Positions 2,046 through 10,445 of a DNA stretch of 64,000 nucleotides are shown here, in pieces. How positions within the stretch are numbered: position 1 is the first letter of the stretch; each line of letters begins with the position of its first letter. The notes beneath the pieces are model-generated. The model was not told the origin of the DNA. It worked only from the letters and a program-made list of their open reading frames with translations, and searched no databases. The position numbers and the translations under genes were made by a program. Origin of the DNA: an uncultured Alphaproteobacteria bacterium. Lineage in GTDB: Bacteria; Pseudomonadota; Alphaproteobacteria; Rhodobacterales; Rhodobacteraceae. The DNA is taken from the NCBI GenBank assembly GCA_902611605.1, contig CACMAH010000006.1:1-64000 (forward strand), written 5' to 3'.

Positions 2046-2891
2046 ATGCGTTATGAACTTAATAGAATACCTCAATTTTATGTGACCGCACCACAAAAGT
2101 GTCCATATATTAAAGGTAAGATTGAAAGGAAATTATTTACCGCATTATATGGAAGAAATTCTGTTAATTTAAATGATGAACTATCATTACAAGGATTTAG
2201 AAGATCTCAAAAAGTTTTATACCGCCCTTTATGTTCTAATTGTTCAGCATGTCTTTCAATAAGAATTAAAGTTAATGAATTTTACTACTCTAAATCTCAA
2301 AAAAGAGTTTTAAATAAAAACAAAAAGCTTATACGTGTTAAAAAAAAACCAGAAGCTACCGATGAACAATATGAAATTTTTAAAAAATATCTTAACTGCA
2401 GGCACCTAAATGGTGGAATGAGTGATATGGATGCCCATGAATTTTCTTCAATGATTGAAGAAACAAATGTCGATAGCGAAATATTTGAATATTGGGAACT
2501 TAAAAAAGATAAAAAAAAACAACTTGTTGCAGTATGCTTAACAGATAAAAATAAGGATGGATTATCAATGGTCTATTCTTTTTATGATCCAAAGTATAAC
2601 TCACAAAGTCTAGGAAAATTTATGATATTAGATCACATAAATTTAACAATAAGTAGTAATTTAGATTATTTATATTTAGGCTATTGGATTAAAGATAACT
2701 CTAAAATGGGATATAAATCTAATTATTTTCCAGCAGAGGTTTTTTATAAAAATCAGTGGAAAGAAATAAATGAAAAAAATATTAATTCTTTTGATTTAAA
2801 TTCTAGCCAAAAATTTCCTAAATTACACAAAGATAACTCAAATCTCGAGAGTATCATTCAACTTCCACGTTTTTCTCAGGATCCAGACTAG
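2046..2891 (+). CDS. bpt: Aspartate/glutamate leucyl/arginyltransferase (Bpt/Ate family)
   Basis: CPYIKGKIERKLFT...GFRRSQKVLYRPLCSNCSACLSIRI and YLGYWIKDNSKMGYKSNYFPAEVF motifs. Confidence 0.9.
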   Translation: MRYELNRIPQFYVTAPQKCPYIKGKIERKLFTALYGRNSVNLNDELSLQGFRRSQKVLYRPLCSNCSACLSIRIKVNEFYYSKSQKRVLNKNKKLIRVKKKPEATDEQYEIFKKYLNCRHLNGGMSDMDAHEFSSMIEETNVDSEIFEYWELKKDKKKQLVAVCLTDKNKDGLSMVYSFYDPKYNSQSLGKFMILDHINLTISSNLDYLYLGYWIKDNSKMGYKSNYFPAEVFYKNQWKEINEKNINSFDLNSSQKFPKLHKDNSNLESIIQLPRFSQDPD

Positions 2892-2901
2892 AAATAATGA
2901 A

Positions 2902-5900
2902 CTAGTTATCTGGTAAAAGATCTGGTAAAAAAGTAACGATTTGAGGAAAAAACCACAGTATAGTAAGTCCAATAATTTGTATTATAACAAAAGGAAATAT
3001 TCCTCTATATATATCCAAAGTAGATATATTTTTTGGTGCAACACCTCTTAAATAAAATAAAGCAAAACCAAAAGGTGGAGTTATAAAAGATGTTTGTAAA
3101 TTTACTGCGATTAAAATAGTAATCCATTCTGGAGGCATTATAGCTGGATCTGCTGCATAAACTACGGGGCCAACTATTGGAATGACTATAAAAATTATTT
3201 CAATAAAGTCTAAAACAAATCCTAAAAAAAATAATACAACCATTACTACTAATAAAAGTACTCTGGGATCTTCAAAACTTCGTAAAAAATGTTCAATATA
3301 TTCTTCACCACCAAAAGAACGTAAAGTAAGTGCTAATAACTGAGACCCAATTAAAATAGCAAAAACCATTACAGAAACTTTAGCAGTTTCTTGTAAAATA
3401 CTAGGTAAAAGACGGTCCTTAGAAAGCAACCATGACTTTACACTACTGTATAAACCGTCTGGAGTTTTTTCAAGAACTCCATCTGATCTTGCAGTTAATA
3501 AAATAATTAATGCATAAAATATCCCCAACATTGAAATTATATAGGTTATTACAGCTATATTTGTAGCAACCGTTCTACCAAACCCTATTAATTCGTCATC
3601 ATCTAAAAAATTCCATTTTATTGTTAACATTAAAATTATTGATAATGTTGTTAAAAGCAAAAATTGACGACCAGATTTGTTATTTAATGGTCCTAGTTGA
3701 GTTTCAGTACTAAGAAGTTTTATCGCTGCAAGTAGTAATGCTCCTCCTGCACCAAGGGCAGCAGCTGGTGTAGGATTAGTAACTCCTCCAAAAATAGAAC
3801 CTAATACAGCAATTATTAATACCACAGGTGGCACAACTACCCTAATTACTTCAATTTTTAGTAGAAAATGAATTGATTGCTTTAAACCATAGAACAGAAA
3901 AATGAATGGAAAAAAATAATAGAATACTCTTGTCCATGGTGGTGTTTCAGCACCAACATAAAAAATAGCCATAAACAGAGTAAATAAAACTCCAAAAATA
4001 CCAATATATATTGATATTTTTGATCTTATGTCAGCTAGAGGAAGAGAGCCAATAAGTGCTAAGGAACAAATTAAACAAAATACTGCTAATGAAGTACTTA
4101 TAAGGGGTGTTTTATAATTATCAAGACTTGAATTTAGATAAGAACCCAATTCTTTTAAAGCTATCCCATCCCCTAAATCTTTATATGCTAACCTTATAAG
4201 ATTTGCTGCTTCATCTTCAACTGGCAAACTTATATCAAAATTTACTTCTCCATTAGATACTGCTCGTACAGCCCTTTCGTAACTAAAAGAAGATGCCATT
4301 AGGGCATCTTTATCTAAAATTTGCTTTGCTGGTTCTAAAGCTCTTTTTAATTTTGACCCTGTAGGCATTTTTCTTATGTTTTTTACTAAATCTTTTAAAT
4401 CAATAGAATTTTTTATATTTAACAAGTTTTCATTAAATGAAGTTATGAAATCATTTGGTAAAAAATCAGCATAATATGAAGTTAACTCCTCTGAAACTCT
4501 TATTACATCTTTCTTTCTTGTTTCGAATTCTTGAAATTTTTGATCATCATCAAAGGACTTAAAATTTTTCCTTCTTGATTTTGATAAAACTTCATTATAA
4601 TTATTTTCGGCAATTAAGAATGGAGAAAAATCAAAAGTTTCTAAGGCAGTTCTTGCTAATTTTTGTATTTCAGTTCCAGTTGGTGCATTTGATACTGCTT
4701 CTGCTAATTCTGATACAGAATTTGCATTTTCAGCAACTGAAAGCATTAAGAGAAATTCGCTTGCTCTCTCTTCTCCTAACATTGCCTTTATTGCATTAGA
4801 AAATCTACTTAAGCCAACCAGCAGATCATTTTTCCTTGTTTCAAATTCATTAGTTCTTAATGTTTTAATAATATCATCTGAATTTGTTTCATTTAAAATT
4901 ACTTCCCAATCTTCTCTTAACCGAGAAGGTACATCTTTATTTCTTGATTTTAAAAGAACGAATTCTCTTAAGGTTTCAAAATCATCCTGATTAATAGATT
5001 TATTTGGCTTTGCATCTTGGATACGTTCAAAAAGTGCTTGAAAACTAGAAAATTTGAGCGCATCTTCAGGTTTTTGTTGCGTCCCGATTATATTCAAAGA
5101 GGTTGAAAGAAAAAAGATTATAAACAAACTTAAAATTGATAATGTGACAAAATTAAAAAGTTTTTTCAAAGAAGACTTATTTTTTTTATTTTCATTATTA
5201 TTATCTTTTCCTATTGGGGGAGCCAGTTTTGGATTATAAAGTGCAATTCCAAATGCATAAGCTGCATATAATAGCGCTAAAACAATACCGGGAATAAAAG
5301 CTGCTTTAAAAAGTGTCCCTGTTGAAATCGCAATATCGCTCCCCAATAATTCAGGCAAAGGTATATTTAGAGCTTCAGACCTTGCTTTCTGAGCTTTTGA
5401 ATAAATATCACCTACCATTGCACCCAATAAAACTAGAACAATAGAAGGTGGAATAACTTGGCCAAGTGTGCCCGAAGTTGCTATTACACCTGTAGCAAGT
5501 GGTTTAGAATATCCAGCTTTTAACATAGTCGGCAAAGATATTAACCCCATTGTCACAACAGTTGCGCCAACTATACCGGTAGAAGCTGCTAATAATGCCC
5601 CTACAGCAACTACTGAAACAGCTAAACCACCAGGTGCACCACCAAAAAGCTTACCCATTGAGGTTAGTAGTTCTTCAGCAATTTTGGACCTTTCTAGAGC
5701 AATTCCCATTAATACAAATAATGGCACTGCTAAAAGTGTATCATTTTGATTTTCACCAAATGCCCTGATATAGGTATTAGAACCCCACTGTGCCAGTGTT
5801 CTCGTACCTTCTATCCAGGCATTAACATCTTCAATAGCTAGGCCTATATGATTATTTAATACAGGTACAAACTGCCCTTGTTCATTTTCTACTAAAAGTA

Positions 5901-6054
5901 ATCCCCATTCATTTAATAATGCAATTATAGCAAAACTAACAACTGCAGCTCCAGAAAGACCAAATGCTACAGGATAGCCGGAGAGAATTGATAAAAATAA
6001 AGTCGAAAAAACTATAATTAGACTTAATTCAACACCATCTAAACCAAAAAGCAT
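2902..6054 (-). CDS. TRAP transporter large permease (DctM-like) with large soluble insertion
   Basis: DctM motifs (VPLFVLMG, GATVVTMGLISLPTMLKAGYSKPLATGVIATSGTLGQVIPPS, LDFIEIIFIVIPIVGPV); 1050 aa versus ~430 aa for a typical DctM. Confidence 0.92.
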   Translation of the reverse strand: MLFGLDGVELSLIIVFSTLFLSILSGYPVAFGLSGAAVVSFAIIALLNEWGLLLVENEQGQFVPVLNNHIGLAIEDVNAWIEGTRTLAQWGSNTYIRAFGENQNDTLLAVPLFVLMGIALERSKIAEELLTSMGKLFGGAPGGLAVSVVAVGALLAASTGIVGATVVTMGLISLPTMLKAGYSKPLATGVIATSGTLGQVIPPSIVLVLLGAMVGDIYSKAQKARSEALNIPLPELLGSDIAISTGTLFKAAFIPGIVLALLYAAYAFGIALYNPKLAPPIGKDNNNENKKNKSSLKKLFNFVTLSILSLFIIFFLSTSLNIIGTQQKPEDALKFSSFQALFERIQDAKPNKSINQDDFETLREFVLLKSRNKDVPSRLREDWEVILNETNSDDIIKTLRTNEFETRKNDLLVGLSRFSNAIKAMLGEERASEFLLMLSVAENANSVSELAEAVSNAPTGTEIQKLARTALETFDFSPFLIAENNYNEVLSKSRRKNFKSFDDDQKFQEFETRKKDVIRVSEELTSYYADFLPNDFITSFNENLLNIKNSIDLKDLVKNIRKMPTGSKLKRALEPAKQILDKDALMASSFSYERAVRAVSNGEVNFDISLPVEDEAANLIRLAYKDLGDGIALKELGSYLNSSLDNYKTPLISTSLAVFCLICSLALIGSLPLADIRSKISIYIGIFGVLFTLFMAIFYVGAETPPWTRVFYYFFPFIFLFYGLKQSIHFLLKIEVIRVVVPPVVLIIAVLGSIFGGVTNPTPAAALGAGGALLLAAIKLLSTETQLGPLNNKSGRQFLLLTTLSIILMLTIKWNFLDDDELIGFGRTVATNIAVITYIISMLGIFYALIILLTARSDGVLEKTPDGLYSSVKSWLLSKDRLLPSILQETAKVSVMVFAILIGSQLLALTLRSFGGEEYIEHFLRSFEDPRVLLLVVMVVLFFLGFVLDFIEIIFIVIPIVGPVVYAADPAIMPPEWITILIAVNLQTSFITPPFGFALFYLRGVAPKNISTLDIYRGIFPFVIIQIIGLTILWFFPQIVTFLPDLLPDN

Positions 6055-6096
6055 TTTTCACCTAATTATTCAAAATATTAAATTTATAAACCATGA

Positions 6097-7191
6097 CTAC
6101 TTGTCCTTACTGTCTCTAGAAGTGAATTTATCAGTACTTTCCAATAAAAAGCTTACTCCCTGTAAAAACATGAGGGCAGCTAATACCAAAAGTAAAAAGA
6201 AATACAATGGGACGCCTGTAAATGTTTCACCAGTAGATACTGTCCAATTCCAACCCTTAAAACTAGAGGCACCAGAAATTCTACCTATTACATCTCTACC
6301 AGTCATCAAAGTGGTAAGGTGATTGAAATTTGTTACTGTCATTATTTTATTTATAGCTAAATGCCAACTTAACCACCATAATGCTGCCATAGATGGTAAT
6401 AAAAAAACAACAGTACCAATAATATCTAATAGGGCTTTTTTCTTTTTTCCTAATGCACTGTAAACTAGATCAACTCTTACATGACCACCTTCAACAAAAG
6501 TAAAAGCACATGCAAAAGCTATAATTATGGCATTAAAAAACATCAATTCAGTAGCAAACCAAGGCATAGTTATTACATCAGAATCTGGCAGGATATTTAT
6601 CCCAAAAAATGCCAACGGAAATCCGTTAGCTCTAAATACTTGCTGTAGAAAAATTATCATTATTTGCATGATGGCCATAATCAATGCAAACCATGAAGCT
6701 ATCTTTCCTAAATTAGTATTAAATTGATTAATTGCCTTATAGCTATATCGCCAAACAGATTTAAAAAAAAATCCACCTATCCAAACTACCAAAACTGCAG
6801 CAAGCACCATAAACAAAAATTCAGAAGATTTTCCAAACATTGCAAAATCTATACTAAATCGGTCTAAAGGATAATCAGGTGAAGCGGCTTTAGCTGAAAC
6901 ATAATCTAAAAAGAGATCTTTATTATTTAAAACATTATCATTTTTTGAATTTTCTAAGATAATTGGGGCTTCAAGTTTTATATTAGCTACCCCTTTAAGC
7001 TCATTATTAAAATCTTTTAATAAACCATTATTTTTCAACTCTGCTTCTATTGAAACTAACGTAGGCCTTGCAATTTCAGCTTTAGAAGTTGCAGAAAACA
7101 ATTCAAACAACCACAATAATAGTCTTGGAATAGCCAAGATTATGTCAAGAAGACCATTAAGTAAGGAAACTAGTATTTGAATAAAACTCAT
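6097..7191 (-). CDS. TRAP transporter small permease (DctQ-like) with extended N-terminal region
   Basis: Adjacent to dctM/dctP; TM-rich with FVEGGHVRVDLVYSAL motif typical of DctQ; 364 aa. Confidence 0.88.
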   Translation of the reverse strand: MSFIQILVSLLNGLLDIILAIPRLLLWLFELFSATSKAEIARPTLVSIEAELKNNGLLKDFNNELKGVANIKLEAPIILENSKNDNVLNNKDLFLDYVSAKAASPDYPLDRFSIDFAMFGKSSEFLFMVLAAVLVVWIGGFFFKSVWRYSYKAINQFNTNLGKIASWFALIMAIMQIMIIFLQQVFRANGFPLAFFGINILPDSDVITMPWFATELMFFNAIIIAFACAFTFVEGGHVRVDLVYSALGKKKKALLDIIGTVVFLLPSMAALWWLSWHLAINKIMTVTNFNHLTTLMTGRDVIGRISGASSFKGWNWTVSTGETFTGVPLYFFLLLVLAALMFLQGVSFLLESTDKFTSRDSKDK

Positions 7192-7245
7192 AAGGTTGTT
7201 TACCTAAAATTGATATTACTTGAGAAAATTCAAAATTATAATACG

Positions 7246-7278
7246 AAGCTCAGCAAAATAATATATTTTGCTGAGCTT
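7246..7278 (-). promoter_or_regulatory. Strong intercistronic hairpin between dctP and dctQ
   Basis: AAGCTCAGCAAAATA-ata-TATTTTGCTGAGCTT: perfect 15-bp arms, 3-nt loop. Confidence 0.85.
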
Positions 7279-7304
7279 TACAATTTATTTGTTGCTATTG
7301 TGGC

Positions 7305-8390
7305 TTAACCACCCATAACTCTGTCACGCTGTGTCATGTAGGCACCTGCAGATTTTGATATCCATCCAGAAGAAGCACGCATTGACTTCATAGCTGATTC
7401 ATATGTTCTTTTAAACAAATCATCATCCATGTTTTCTTCAAAAACTTCCATTGCACCCTTACCAAAAGCATCCCACACATCATTAGGAAATTCTAAAGCT
7501 CTAGTACCACCAGCTATAAGTCTTTCTAAAGCAGCACCGTTGTTCGCCAGATATTGTGAGTGAGACCATCTATTAGCTTCACCAGCAGAGACCCTAATCA
7601 TTTCTTTATGACCATCAGATAATCCATCCCAACGATCAAGGTTAACACAGACAGATAAACCTGCTCCAGGCTCATGAAAACCAGCTGTATAATAGATATT
7701 AGTTGCTTCATGAAGTCCCAAGGATTCATCAGATGCTGGACCAATCCATTCGGCACCATCAATAGCTCCTGATTGTAAAGCCTGATAGATTTCTCCACCT
7801 GCCATAGTGATTGATGAAGCACCCATTTTGGAAATAACTTTACCACCAAGACCAGGCATTCTGTATTTAAGACCTTCAAAGTCAGCTGCCGAATTGATTT
7901 CTTTTCCAAACCAACCACCTGCTTGAGTTCCAGTATTCCCAGCTAAAAAGCCTTTAAAACCCATTTCTTCTCCGAGTTCATCCCATAATTCTCTTCCACC
8001 ATTATGAAGAATCCAGTCATCAAGTTCTTGACAAGTCATTCCAAAAGGTACTGCTGTGAAAAAAGCAGTTGTTGGGTTCTGTCCAATGTAATAGTACATA
8101 GCAAAGTGAGCAGCATCAGCAGTCCCTGAAGTCATAGCGTCGAAAGCAGCAGCTGTTCCAGAAACTAGTTCGCCATTAGCTTTAAGATCAATTTCTAAAG
8201 TGCCACCAGAGATAGCATTACAATTATCAGCAAATCGTTGAGCCGCATCATGTACACCAAATGAACCACGTCCCCATGTTGTAACCATTGTTAACTTCTC
8301 TCTACCTTGAGATAAAGATGGTGTAGCCAAAGCTGCGCCACCAGCAATACCAGCCAGTGTAGAGTTAGTTATAAATTTTCTTCTATCCAT
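7305..8390 (-). CDS. TRAP transporter substrate-binding protein (DctP/TakP-like), Tat-type signal
   Basis: MDRRKFITNSTLAGIAGGAALATPSL twin-arginine signal; GGEIYQALQSGAIDGAEWIGP typical of the TakP-like 2-oxoacid/mannitol-chloroaromatic subfamily. Confidence 0.92.
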   Translation of the reverse strand: MDRRKFITNSTLAGIAGGAALATPSLSQGREKLTMVTTWGRGSFGVHDAAQRFADNCNAISGGTLEIDLKANGELVSGTAAAFDAMTSGTADAAHFAMYYYIGQNPTTAFFTAVPFGMTCQELDDWILHNGGRELWDELGEEMGFKGFLAGNTGTQAGGWFGKEINSAADFEGLKYRMPGLGGKVISKMGASSITMAGGEIYQALQSGAIDGAEWIGPASDESLGLHEATNIYYTAGFHEPGAGLSVCVNLDRWDGLSDGHKEMIRVSAGEANRWSHSQYLANNGAALERLIAGGTRALEFPNDVWDAFGKGAMEVFEENMDDDLFKRTYESAMKSMRASSGWISKSAGAYMTQRDRVMGG

Positions 8391-8420
8391 TTTAAATTTC
8401 CCTCTCTAAAATTTATAGCA

Positions 8421-8448
8421 TTGTATACTAAGAAAACATCGTATACAT
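8421..8448. promoter_or_regulatory. Pair of GTATAC-centred sites upstream of dctP (GntR/FadR-type operator candidate)
   Basis: ttGTATACta (8421-8430) and tcGTATACat (8439-8448), centres 18 bp apart. Confidence 0.4.
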
Positions 8449-8696
8449 TATTTACTATACTTATTTCAAGCTAAAATTGTTTATTATACATTTTAATTGA
8501 AAATATTTGAAATTAAATCCCTTTTATTTTTTAAAATTTTCTTAAAAATTGCTCAATATATAGTTATTTGAAATTATTCGGTGATTTTTTTAGAAAGATT
8601 AATAAAATTTTAATAATAACAACTATTTCAATACTTTAATTAATTATTATTAATGCTATTATATAAAAAACTTTAAAATAAAAATTAGGTATTGAT

Positions 8697-10445
8697 ATGA
8701 ATAATATTATGTCGGGAGCTCAAATTGTAGTAGAAGCATTACTTGAACAAAAAGTTGATACAGTTTTCGGATATCCAGGCGGTGCCGTTCTTCCTATATA
8801 TGATGAAATTTTTAAACAAAGTAAAATAAAGCATGTTCTTGTAAGACATGAGCAAGGAGCAATTCATGCAGCAGAAGGATATTCTCGATCAACAGGAAAA
8901 CCTGGCGTTGCCCTTGTTACATCAGGACCAGGAGCAACTAATTCAGTTACTGGCTTAACAGATGCACTTATGGATAGTATCCCAATAATTGTATTAACAG
9001 GACAAGTGCCTACATTCATGATAGGTAATGATGCTTTCCAAGAAGCTGACACAGTTGGAATTACAAGGCCTTGCACTAAGCATAATTGGCTTGTAAAGGA
9101 CACAAATATTCTTGGTAAAACAATACACGAAGCTTTCTATGTTTCAACAAACGGTCGTCCTGGTCCAGTTTTAGTTGATATCCCAAAAGATGTACAATTT
9201 GCTACTGGATCTTACCTGAAGAAAACAGATTTTACACCAAAAAGATATAAACCGAAAATAAAACCAAATAGTGATTTAATTTTAAAAGCAGTAAAAGCTT
9301 TTGAAAATGCAAAAAATCCCATAATTTACTCAGGTGGCGGAGTTATTAATTCTGGAGATAATGCTTCAAAACTTCTCAGAGAACTAGTTCATGAGAGTGA
9401 CTTTCCAATAACTTCTACTTTAATGGGACTGGGTTGCTATCCTGCATCTAAAAAAAATTGGATGGGTATGTTAGGAATGCATGGAACTTACGAAGCAAAT
9501 ATGGCTATGCATGATTGTGATTTTATGTTTTGTATAGGAGCTAGATTCGATGACCGCATTACTGGCAAAACTGATGAATTTAGTCCAAATTCCACTAAAA
9601 TTCATATAGATATTGATCCTTCATCTATAAATAAAAATATTTTAGTTGATATTGGAATTGTTGGGGATATTAAAACCACTCTTCAGGCATTCTTAAAATT
9701 ATGGAGAAAAAGAGGATCTAAGTCTTCCATGAGTAAATCGTGGTGGAAAACAATTCAAGATTGGAGAGCAGTAAATTGCTTAAAATATAATAAATCAAAG
9801 TCATCTATTAAACCACAATACGCTCTTCAAAGACTTGAAGAATTAACTAAAAATACTGACAGATATGTTACTACTGAAGTGGGGCAACATCAAATGTGGG
9901 CTGCTCAGTTTATGGGGTTTGAAGAGCCAAAACGGTGGATGACTTCAGGTGGTCTAGGGACTATGGGATATGGTTTCCCTGCTTCCATTGGAGTACAACT
10001 TGCACATCCAAAATCTCTTGTTATTAATGTTGCTGGTGAAGCTAGCTGGCTAATGAATATGCAAGAGTTAGGGACAGCAGTACAATATAACCTCCCTGTT
10101 AAACAGTTTATTCTAAATAATGAAAGACTAGGTATGGTTAGACAATGGCAAGAATTATTACACGGTGGAAGATATTCACACAGTTGGTCTGACGCACTAC
10201 CAGACTTCGTTAAACTTGCAGAAGCATATGGGATAAAAGGAATTTGTTGCAGTGATCCCAACAAGCTTGATGACGCAATTTTAGAAATGATAAATTATGA
10301 TGGACCAGTAATTTTTGATTGTTTAGTTGAAAAACATGAAAATTGCTTTCCTATGATACCATCTGGAAAAGCTCATAACGAAATGATCTTAAGTGCTGAA
10401 GAGCCGGAACAAGAAATTGGCAAATCAGGTGCAGTGTTAGTTTAG
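8697..10445 (+). CDS. ilvB: Acetolactate synthase large subunit
   Basis: MSGAQIVVEALLEQKVDTVFGYPGGAVLPIYDEI...GPGATNSVTGLTDALMDSIPI. Confidence 0.97.
   Translation: MNNIMSGAQIVVEALLEQKVDTVFGYPGGAVLPIYDEIFKQSKIKHVLVRHEQGAIHAAEGYSRSTGKPGVALVTSGPGATNSVTGLTDALMDSIPIIVLTGQVPTFMIGNDAFQEADTVGITRPCTKHNWLVKDTNILGKTIHEAFYVSTNGRPGPVLVDIPKDVQFATGSYLKKTDFTPKRYKPKIKPNSDLILKAVKAFENAKNPIIYSGGGVINSGDNASKLLRELVHESDFPITSTLMGLGCYPASKKNWMGMLGMHGTYEANMAMHDCDFMFCIGARFDDRITGKTDEFSPNSTKIHIDIDPSSINKNILVDIGIVGDIKTTLQAFLKLWRKRGSKSSMSKSWWKTIQDWRAVNCLKYNKSKSSIKPQYALQRLEELTKNTDRYVTTEVGQHQMWAAQFMGFEEPKRWMTSGGLGTMGYGFPASIGVQLAHPKSLVINVAGEASWLMNMQELGTAVQYNLPVKQFILNNERLGMVRQWQELLHGGRYSHSWSDALPDFVKLAEAYGIKGICCSDPNKLDDAILEMINYDGPVIFDCLVEKHENCFPMIPSGKAHNEMILSAEEPEQEIGKSGAVLV

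Follow-up and report, generated by a model that had tools for sequence, protein, structure and literature searches.

Results

A TRAP operon whose permease subunit carries an inserted domain

The window analysed here is a 64,000-nt stretch of DNA from an uncultured marine member of the Rhodobacteraceae. Between positions 8390 and 2902, on the minus strand, it holds an operon of three adjacent and co-oriented genes for the DctP, DctQ and DctM subunits of a TRAP transporter, of which dctM is the third (Table 1). The 1050-aa DctM scores 195.8 bits against Pfam PF06808 (cut-off 23.8), with matches on either side of a large insertion, and the top Foldseek matches of its model, which is a weak one, are SiaQM/IseQM. 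Three things together place the protein in the DctM family: its Pfam score, its location in one operon with dctP and dctQ, and these Foldseek matches. Its match to NCBIfam TIGR00786 (dctM) is broken into three stretches and reaches 245 bits, below the curated whole-protein cut-off of 268.45, and for this reason the protein is not filed under that subfamily model. A TAXI-type TRAP system was ruled out: DctQ and DctM are separate proteins, and the receptor belongs to the DctP family PF03480.

The window DctP (361 aa) aligns with TakP (2hzk, 365 aa) at an E value of 1.4e-62, and scores 17.4 against the TAT_signal_seq model (cut-off 16.7). In TakP, a helix-swapped dimer, Y100 and R177 contact pyruvate and W215 coordinates the cation (PMC1839085). 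All three are aligned to the same residues in the window protein which, judged by these keto-acid binding residues, is a TakP-type receptor. Elsewhere in the window, an open reading frame at 130-990, adjoining metA, carries a P-loop-like motif, GMSGLGKTKLSN, and looks like a small ATPase or kinase; it is also found in sister genomes (L026, L027, L071).

Table 1. Features of the TRAP operon, with window positions, strand and the evidence for each
Feature	Position	Strand	Evidence
DctM-like TRAP large permease subunit with insertion, 1050 aa	2902..6054	minus	Pfam DctM and orthologues
DctQ-like small membrane subunit, 364 aa	6097..7191	minus	Pfam DctQ, 34.7 bits vs 28.3
DctP-like solute-binding protein, TakP type, Tat signal	7305..8390	minus	Pfam DctP, 151 bits
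Inserted all-helical domain, DctM residues 324-650, predicted periplasmic	4105..5085	minus	Alignment with 785-aa sisters, AlphaFold2
Repeat unit 1, DctM residues 392-493, five helices	4576..4881	minus	Offset-106 diagonal, hhalign, AlphaFold2
Repeat unit 2, DctM residues 503-600, five helices	4255..4548	minus	Offset-106 diagonal, hhalign, AlphaFold2
Extra TM helix before insertion, DctM residues 290-319	5098..5187	minus	Hydropathy, AlphaFold2, common to 785-aa DctMs
Three extra TM helices after insertion, DctM residues 654-673, 676-698, 706-731	3862..4095	minus	AlphaFold2, 785-aa DctMs
Extra ~70-aa non-membrane DctQ segment, residues 34-104, predicted periplasmic	6880..7092	minus	DctQ alignment

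The insertion contains a diverged tandem repeat

The earlier note had read the insertion as a diverged in-frame tandem duplication from two pairs of landmarks, and both pairs lie where it had placed them: EFETRKND at residues 403-410 (4825-4848) returns as EFETRKKD at 509-516 (4507-4530), and PTGTE at 458-462 (4669-4683) as PTGSK at 564-568 (4351-4365). The duplication itself is supported by the diagonal at offset 106, by a profile match between the units, and by the same AlphaFold helix order occurring twice. The gapless BLOSUM62 diagonal at this offset scores 72 over residues 403-490 versus 509-596 (18 of 88 positions identical), while across 1000 shuffled versions of the insertion the top-scoring diagonal, whatever its offset, reached at most 54 and averaged 33; a chance repeat is excluded. 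When compared with hhalign, the unit 1 and unit 2 profiles aligned without a gap across 89 columns, at E 1.2e-6 and a probability of 91%, with a score of 39 versus at most 17 for column-shuffled and at most 13 for reversed profiles. Offset 109 gave the best or joint-best diagonal in four diverged Geminicoccus-type homologues, only two of which exceed most shuffles on their own; these proteins are 59-60% identical to the window DctM overall and about 40% identical in the insertion. The repeats span about residues 390-600 of the 327-aa block, with ~70 aa of non-repeat sequence before the units and ~45 aa after them, and a third or fourth copy before or after the two units gave no signal beyond segment overlap.

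An AlphaFold2 model of the insertion alone, made from 7 sequences, has a mean pLDDT of 78, rising to about 90 in the units. In insertion numbering (add 323 for DctM residues), the predicted helices are 69-103, 105-119, 124-130, 138-150 and 154-170 in unit 1, and 180-205, 211-225, 230-237, 243-257 and 259-277 in unit 2, so that both units show the same five-helix order, shifted by 105-106 residues. A full-length run gives the same two-unit pattern, the two runs not being independent because they have sequences in common; this full-length model, weak outside the units and with a pLDDT of 60, does not fix how the domain sits on the permease. The domain has no significant match by Pfam, PDB sequence or PDB fold. 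Its best Pfam matches, PolyA_pol_arg_C and DUF7528, are at chance level and were rejected. It contains no cysteine and one tryptophan, with 46 K/R and 55 D/E residues.

Extra membrane helices probably put the domain on the periplasmic side

The block had been described as lying between the canonical membrane halves of DctM. It is indeed a non-membrane block inside the protein, but it does not lie directly between the halves, as extra TM helices flank it, one before and three after. The first two of the three following helices stand out as hydropathy peaks, and a Lys-rich stretch (residues 283-298) precedes the helix at 290-319. The M domain of HiSiaQM is made up of TM2-11 plus two hairpins, and its TM2-6 and TM7-11 form a pseudo-symmetric, two-fold repeat (PMC9352664). 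Going by sequence, the four extra helices of the window DctM are inserted at the TM6-TM7 linker, the junction of the permease's two inverted repeats. If the helices are counted in an unfused M, which begins in the periplasm, this linker should be cytoplasmic. As one extra helix would then carry the chain out of the cytoplasm, the inserted domain probably faces the periplasm, and the Lys-rich stretch on the opposite side agrees with this. Since three helices (654-731) come after the domain and one precedes it, the original topology would be restored, and this count would also bring the DctM C-terminus to the periplasmic side.

The DctQ encoded in the same operon has an extra segment of its own, located after the first hydrophobic helix and before the second, for which hydropathy and parity suggest a periplasmic location. 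This segment is present in all six domain-bearing systems that were read and in none of the five 785-type systems, and is 24-28% identical between the two domain-bearing clades.

The domain is rare and evolves under constraint

The closest relatives of the domain-bearing permeases are ~785-aa DctMs of Rhodobacteraceae type, which align on both sides of the insertion and have the extra TM helices, with a loop of ~65-80 aa between them versus 327 aa in the window DctM. In a permease-core tree from which the insertion was left out, the domain-bearing DctMs group in a single clade with support 98, and the 785-aa proteins make up its sister clade; the ~880-aa DctMs fall outside both. The extra TM helices, being shared by both sister clades, are therefore older than their split, and the domain must have been either gained in the domain-bearing clade or lost in the 785-aa clade. 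The insertion is no common feature of the family: it is absent from the ~785-aa, ~880-aa and ~430-aa DctMs alike.

In profile searches, over samples in which several genomes are incomplete, the insertion found one other strong match among 387 alphaproteobacteria, and its own genome only among 249 genomes of the family and 399 of the phylum. Closer sampling gave 4 carriers among the 11 genomes of the other carrier's order (Geminicoccus-type) and 3 among the 12 of the window's genus. Plasmids gave no match, and one genome (G247) gave a weak, partial match (E 0.005) in a 503-aa frame.

Between the window and same-genus proteins, dN/dS is 0.15-0.19 in the insertion versus 0.03-0.05 in the TM parts. 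The insertion is thus under purifying selection, kept but faster-evolving than the membrane parts. It is the fastest-evolving part of DctM, at about 40% identity between the two clades, as compared with 76% for DctP. Conservation within it is highest in the AP.G turn, in the long helix that opens unit 1, and in the closing helix of unit 2 together with the segment that follows.

The neighbourhoods of related operons hold further genes. Directly downstream of the Geminicoccus-type operons L028-L031 (in part for L028 and L031) lies a second, smaller TRAP set with a DctM of ~520-544 aa; in L028-L030 this set also has a DctP, and these three loci carry a gene resembling an old-yellow-enzyme type reductase. 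Divergent genes resembling a histidine kinase and a response regulator lie beside TakP-type operons with the domain (L029 173-2097, L030 148-2087) and without it (L060 54-2227, L061 1-2029).

A probably related unit at the C-terminus of another DctM type

DctMs of ~880 aa do not have the four additional linker helices; they carry instead a ~330-aa C-terminal extension, which was found in 21 of 290 alphaproteobacterial genomes. Like the window domain, this extension is an accessory domain on the DctM of a TakP-like operon, and would be periplasmic by the topology argument. It differs in being C-terminal and in having cysteines and a coiled-coil-like part, whereas the window domain lies mid-protein and is built from a duplicated unit. 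Two of its cysteines are invariant in 17 sequences, consistent with an oxidising periplasm. No Pfam family fits the extension, which was read at L040:4945-5934 and at 16 further loci (L041-L056).

One unit of the 880-type extension aligns to both window repeats, in the same columns and in consistent register. The two repeats score 24.0 and 25.1 against it, versus null maxima of 18.3 and 17.2, and a merged repeat profile scores 22.7 versus a null of 11.9; across the comparisons the hhalign probabilities are only 8-19% and P ranges from 0.0003 to 0.004. The unit of the 880-type extension is probably homologous to the window repeat, so that the module seems to have two distinct mounting points on the periplasmic side.

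Whole operons replace each other between ilvB and bpt

The slot between ilvB and bpt that holds the window operon is occupied by an 880-type TRAP operon in G092 and three other genomes of the window's genus. The 1050-type and 880-type operons replace each other at this slot, and no genome of the genus has both. In G644 (L070), bpt and ilvB are 94% and 92% identical to those of the window at the DNA level, and the slot between them holds an 880-type operon whose dctM and dctP are only 55% and 59% identical to the window's. The window dctM and dctQ, in turn, are 93.5% and 92% identical to those of L027, where the flanking genes reach only 80-83% (region 2046-10445). On the simplest reading, the window lineage would have received its 1050-type operon from an L027-like relative, replacing an 880-type operon. 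A 785-type operon also occurs in this slot, in L062, with both neighbours seen.

These observations raise the possibility, which we hold loosely, that TRAP systems with TakP-class, DctP-type receptors have a helical periplasmic docking-module family of their own, with two mounts on the M subunit and whole operons swapped at a fixed slot. The mounts would be the TM6-TM7 linker loop, with a duplicated unit, and the C-terminus, with a single unit.

Discussion

What might a helical repeat domain do on what is probably the outer side of a TRAP permease? We propose, as a tentative reading that falls somewhat short of probable, that it serves DctP as a platform for docking or clamping. The domain, probably together with the extra DctQ segment, would hold the TakP-like and presumably dimeric DctP over the permease and so raise the efficiency of substrate hand-over, the role suggested for the claw domain in VcGluQM, here filled by a helical fold unrelated to it. 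This proposal builds on the likely membrane side of the domain and its rare gain beside the receptor docking face, on the probable use of the C-terminal, also periplasmic, end of DctM as a further mount, and on the claw-domain precedent in VcGluPQM (PMC11574862). It also draws on the presence of a TakP-like DctP in the same operon and of an extra DctQ segment only in domain-bearing systems. Against it, the domain diverges fast beside a well-conserved DctP, which is odd for a surface that binds DctP tightly, and because the 785-type systems, which lack the domain, also rely on a TakP-like DctP, it is dispensable in general.

The main rival reading is that the domain braces Q and M: it would bind the extra DctQ segment or another DctM and stabilise the stator or an oligomer, making no contact with DctP. 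We consider this rather unlikely, although several observations fit it. The domain and the DctQ segment co-occur without exception in the systems read (6/6 versus 0/5), both diverge fast between the clades (24-28% identity for the Q segment, about 40% for the M domain), and the additional helices of DctM are located where elevator and stator meet. This co-occurrence, however, comes from one clade and hence possibly from one event, and the 880-type systems have an accessory domain with a differently built DctQ. An improbable view is that the loop is a nearly passive spacer, grown by duplication and tolerated outside the transport core. A domain dN/dS 3-6 times that of the TM parts and closest relatives that do without the domain would suit such a spacer, but the dN/dS is still low, the clades agree in the length and helix pattern of the domain despite about 40% identity in it, and the short motifs AMLG, AP.G, SK.RRK and SF.Y.R persist.

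Some C4-dicarboxylate transporters couple to two-component sensors, and the domain could in principle be a sensory one that links the transporter to such a system. Histidine kinase-like and response regulator-like genes do lie divergently beside the domain-bearing Geminicoccus-type operons L029 and L030; no such genes flank the window operon, however, and domain-free operons of the 785 type (L060, L061) have neighbours of this kind too, so that we regard a sensory role as very unlikely. Still harder to credit is that the permease carries an additional solute-binding domain by fusion, as in SBP-fused ABC importers: a size of 327 aa and a likely periplasmic side would accommodate one, but the predicted fold is an all-helical repeat rather than a two-lobed alpha/beta fold, and no solute-binding protein family was matched significantly by profile or structure.

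The docking proposal bears on the way TRAP receptors engage the permease, whose periplasmic face is relatively flat in HiSiaQM (PMC9352664), and on why TakP-type receptors dimerise. The domain-bearing permeases, their domain-free sisters and the 880-type permeases constitute natural deletion and relocation variants in which the docking step could be tested.

The earlier note knew of no described function for such a domain inside a TRAP permease. This is right for the domain itself, as the open-access literature that could be searched yielded no account of a DctM with a periplasmic domain, but accessory periplasmic domains as such are known, from the claw of VcGluQM and from the maltose ABC importer (PMC11574862). 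The claw is globular and sits in a loop on the periplasmic side that is bounded by additional TM helices, an arrangement also predicted for the window DctM; it is predicted to dock the binding protein, occurs sporadically in its family and, according to its authors, has not been reported in any DctP-type TRAP (PMC11574862). It differs in being mainly beta-sheet, C-terminal and part of a TAXI-type fused QM, whereas the window domain is all-helical, built from a tandem repeat and inserted where TM6 and TM7 are linked in the M subunit of a DctP-type system. Identity with the claw domain (DUF3394) was ruled out by the absence of a match up to E=5, the all-helical model and the mid-protein position. 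The claw has itself been compared with a similar domain in MalEFGK2 (PMC11574862). The P2 loop of MalF in this maltose importer is likewise a large periplasmic permease insertion associated with a binding protein, although it belongs to an ABC system and the resemblance is one of role only. Periplasmic accessory domains on binding-protein-dependent permeases were known already; what appears to be new, going by that literature, is a helical repeat domain in a DctP-type TRAP permease, which suggests that accessory domains are not limited to TAXI-type TRAPs.
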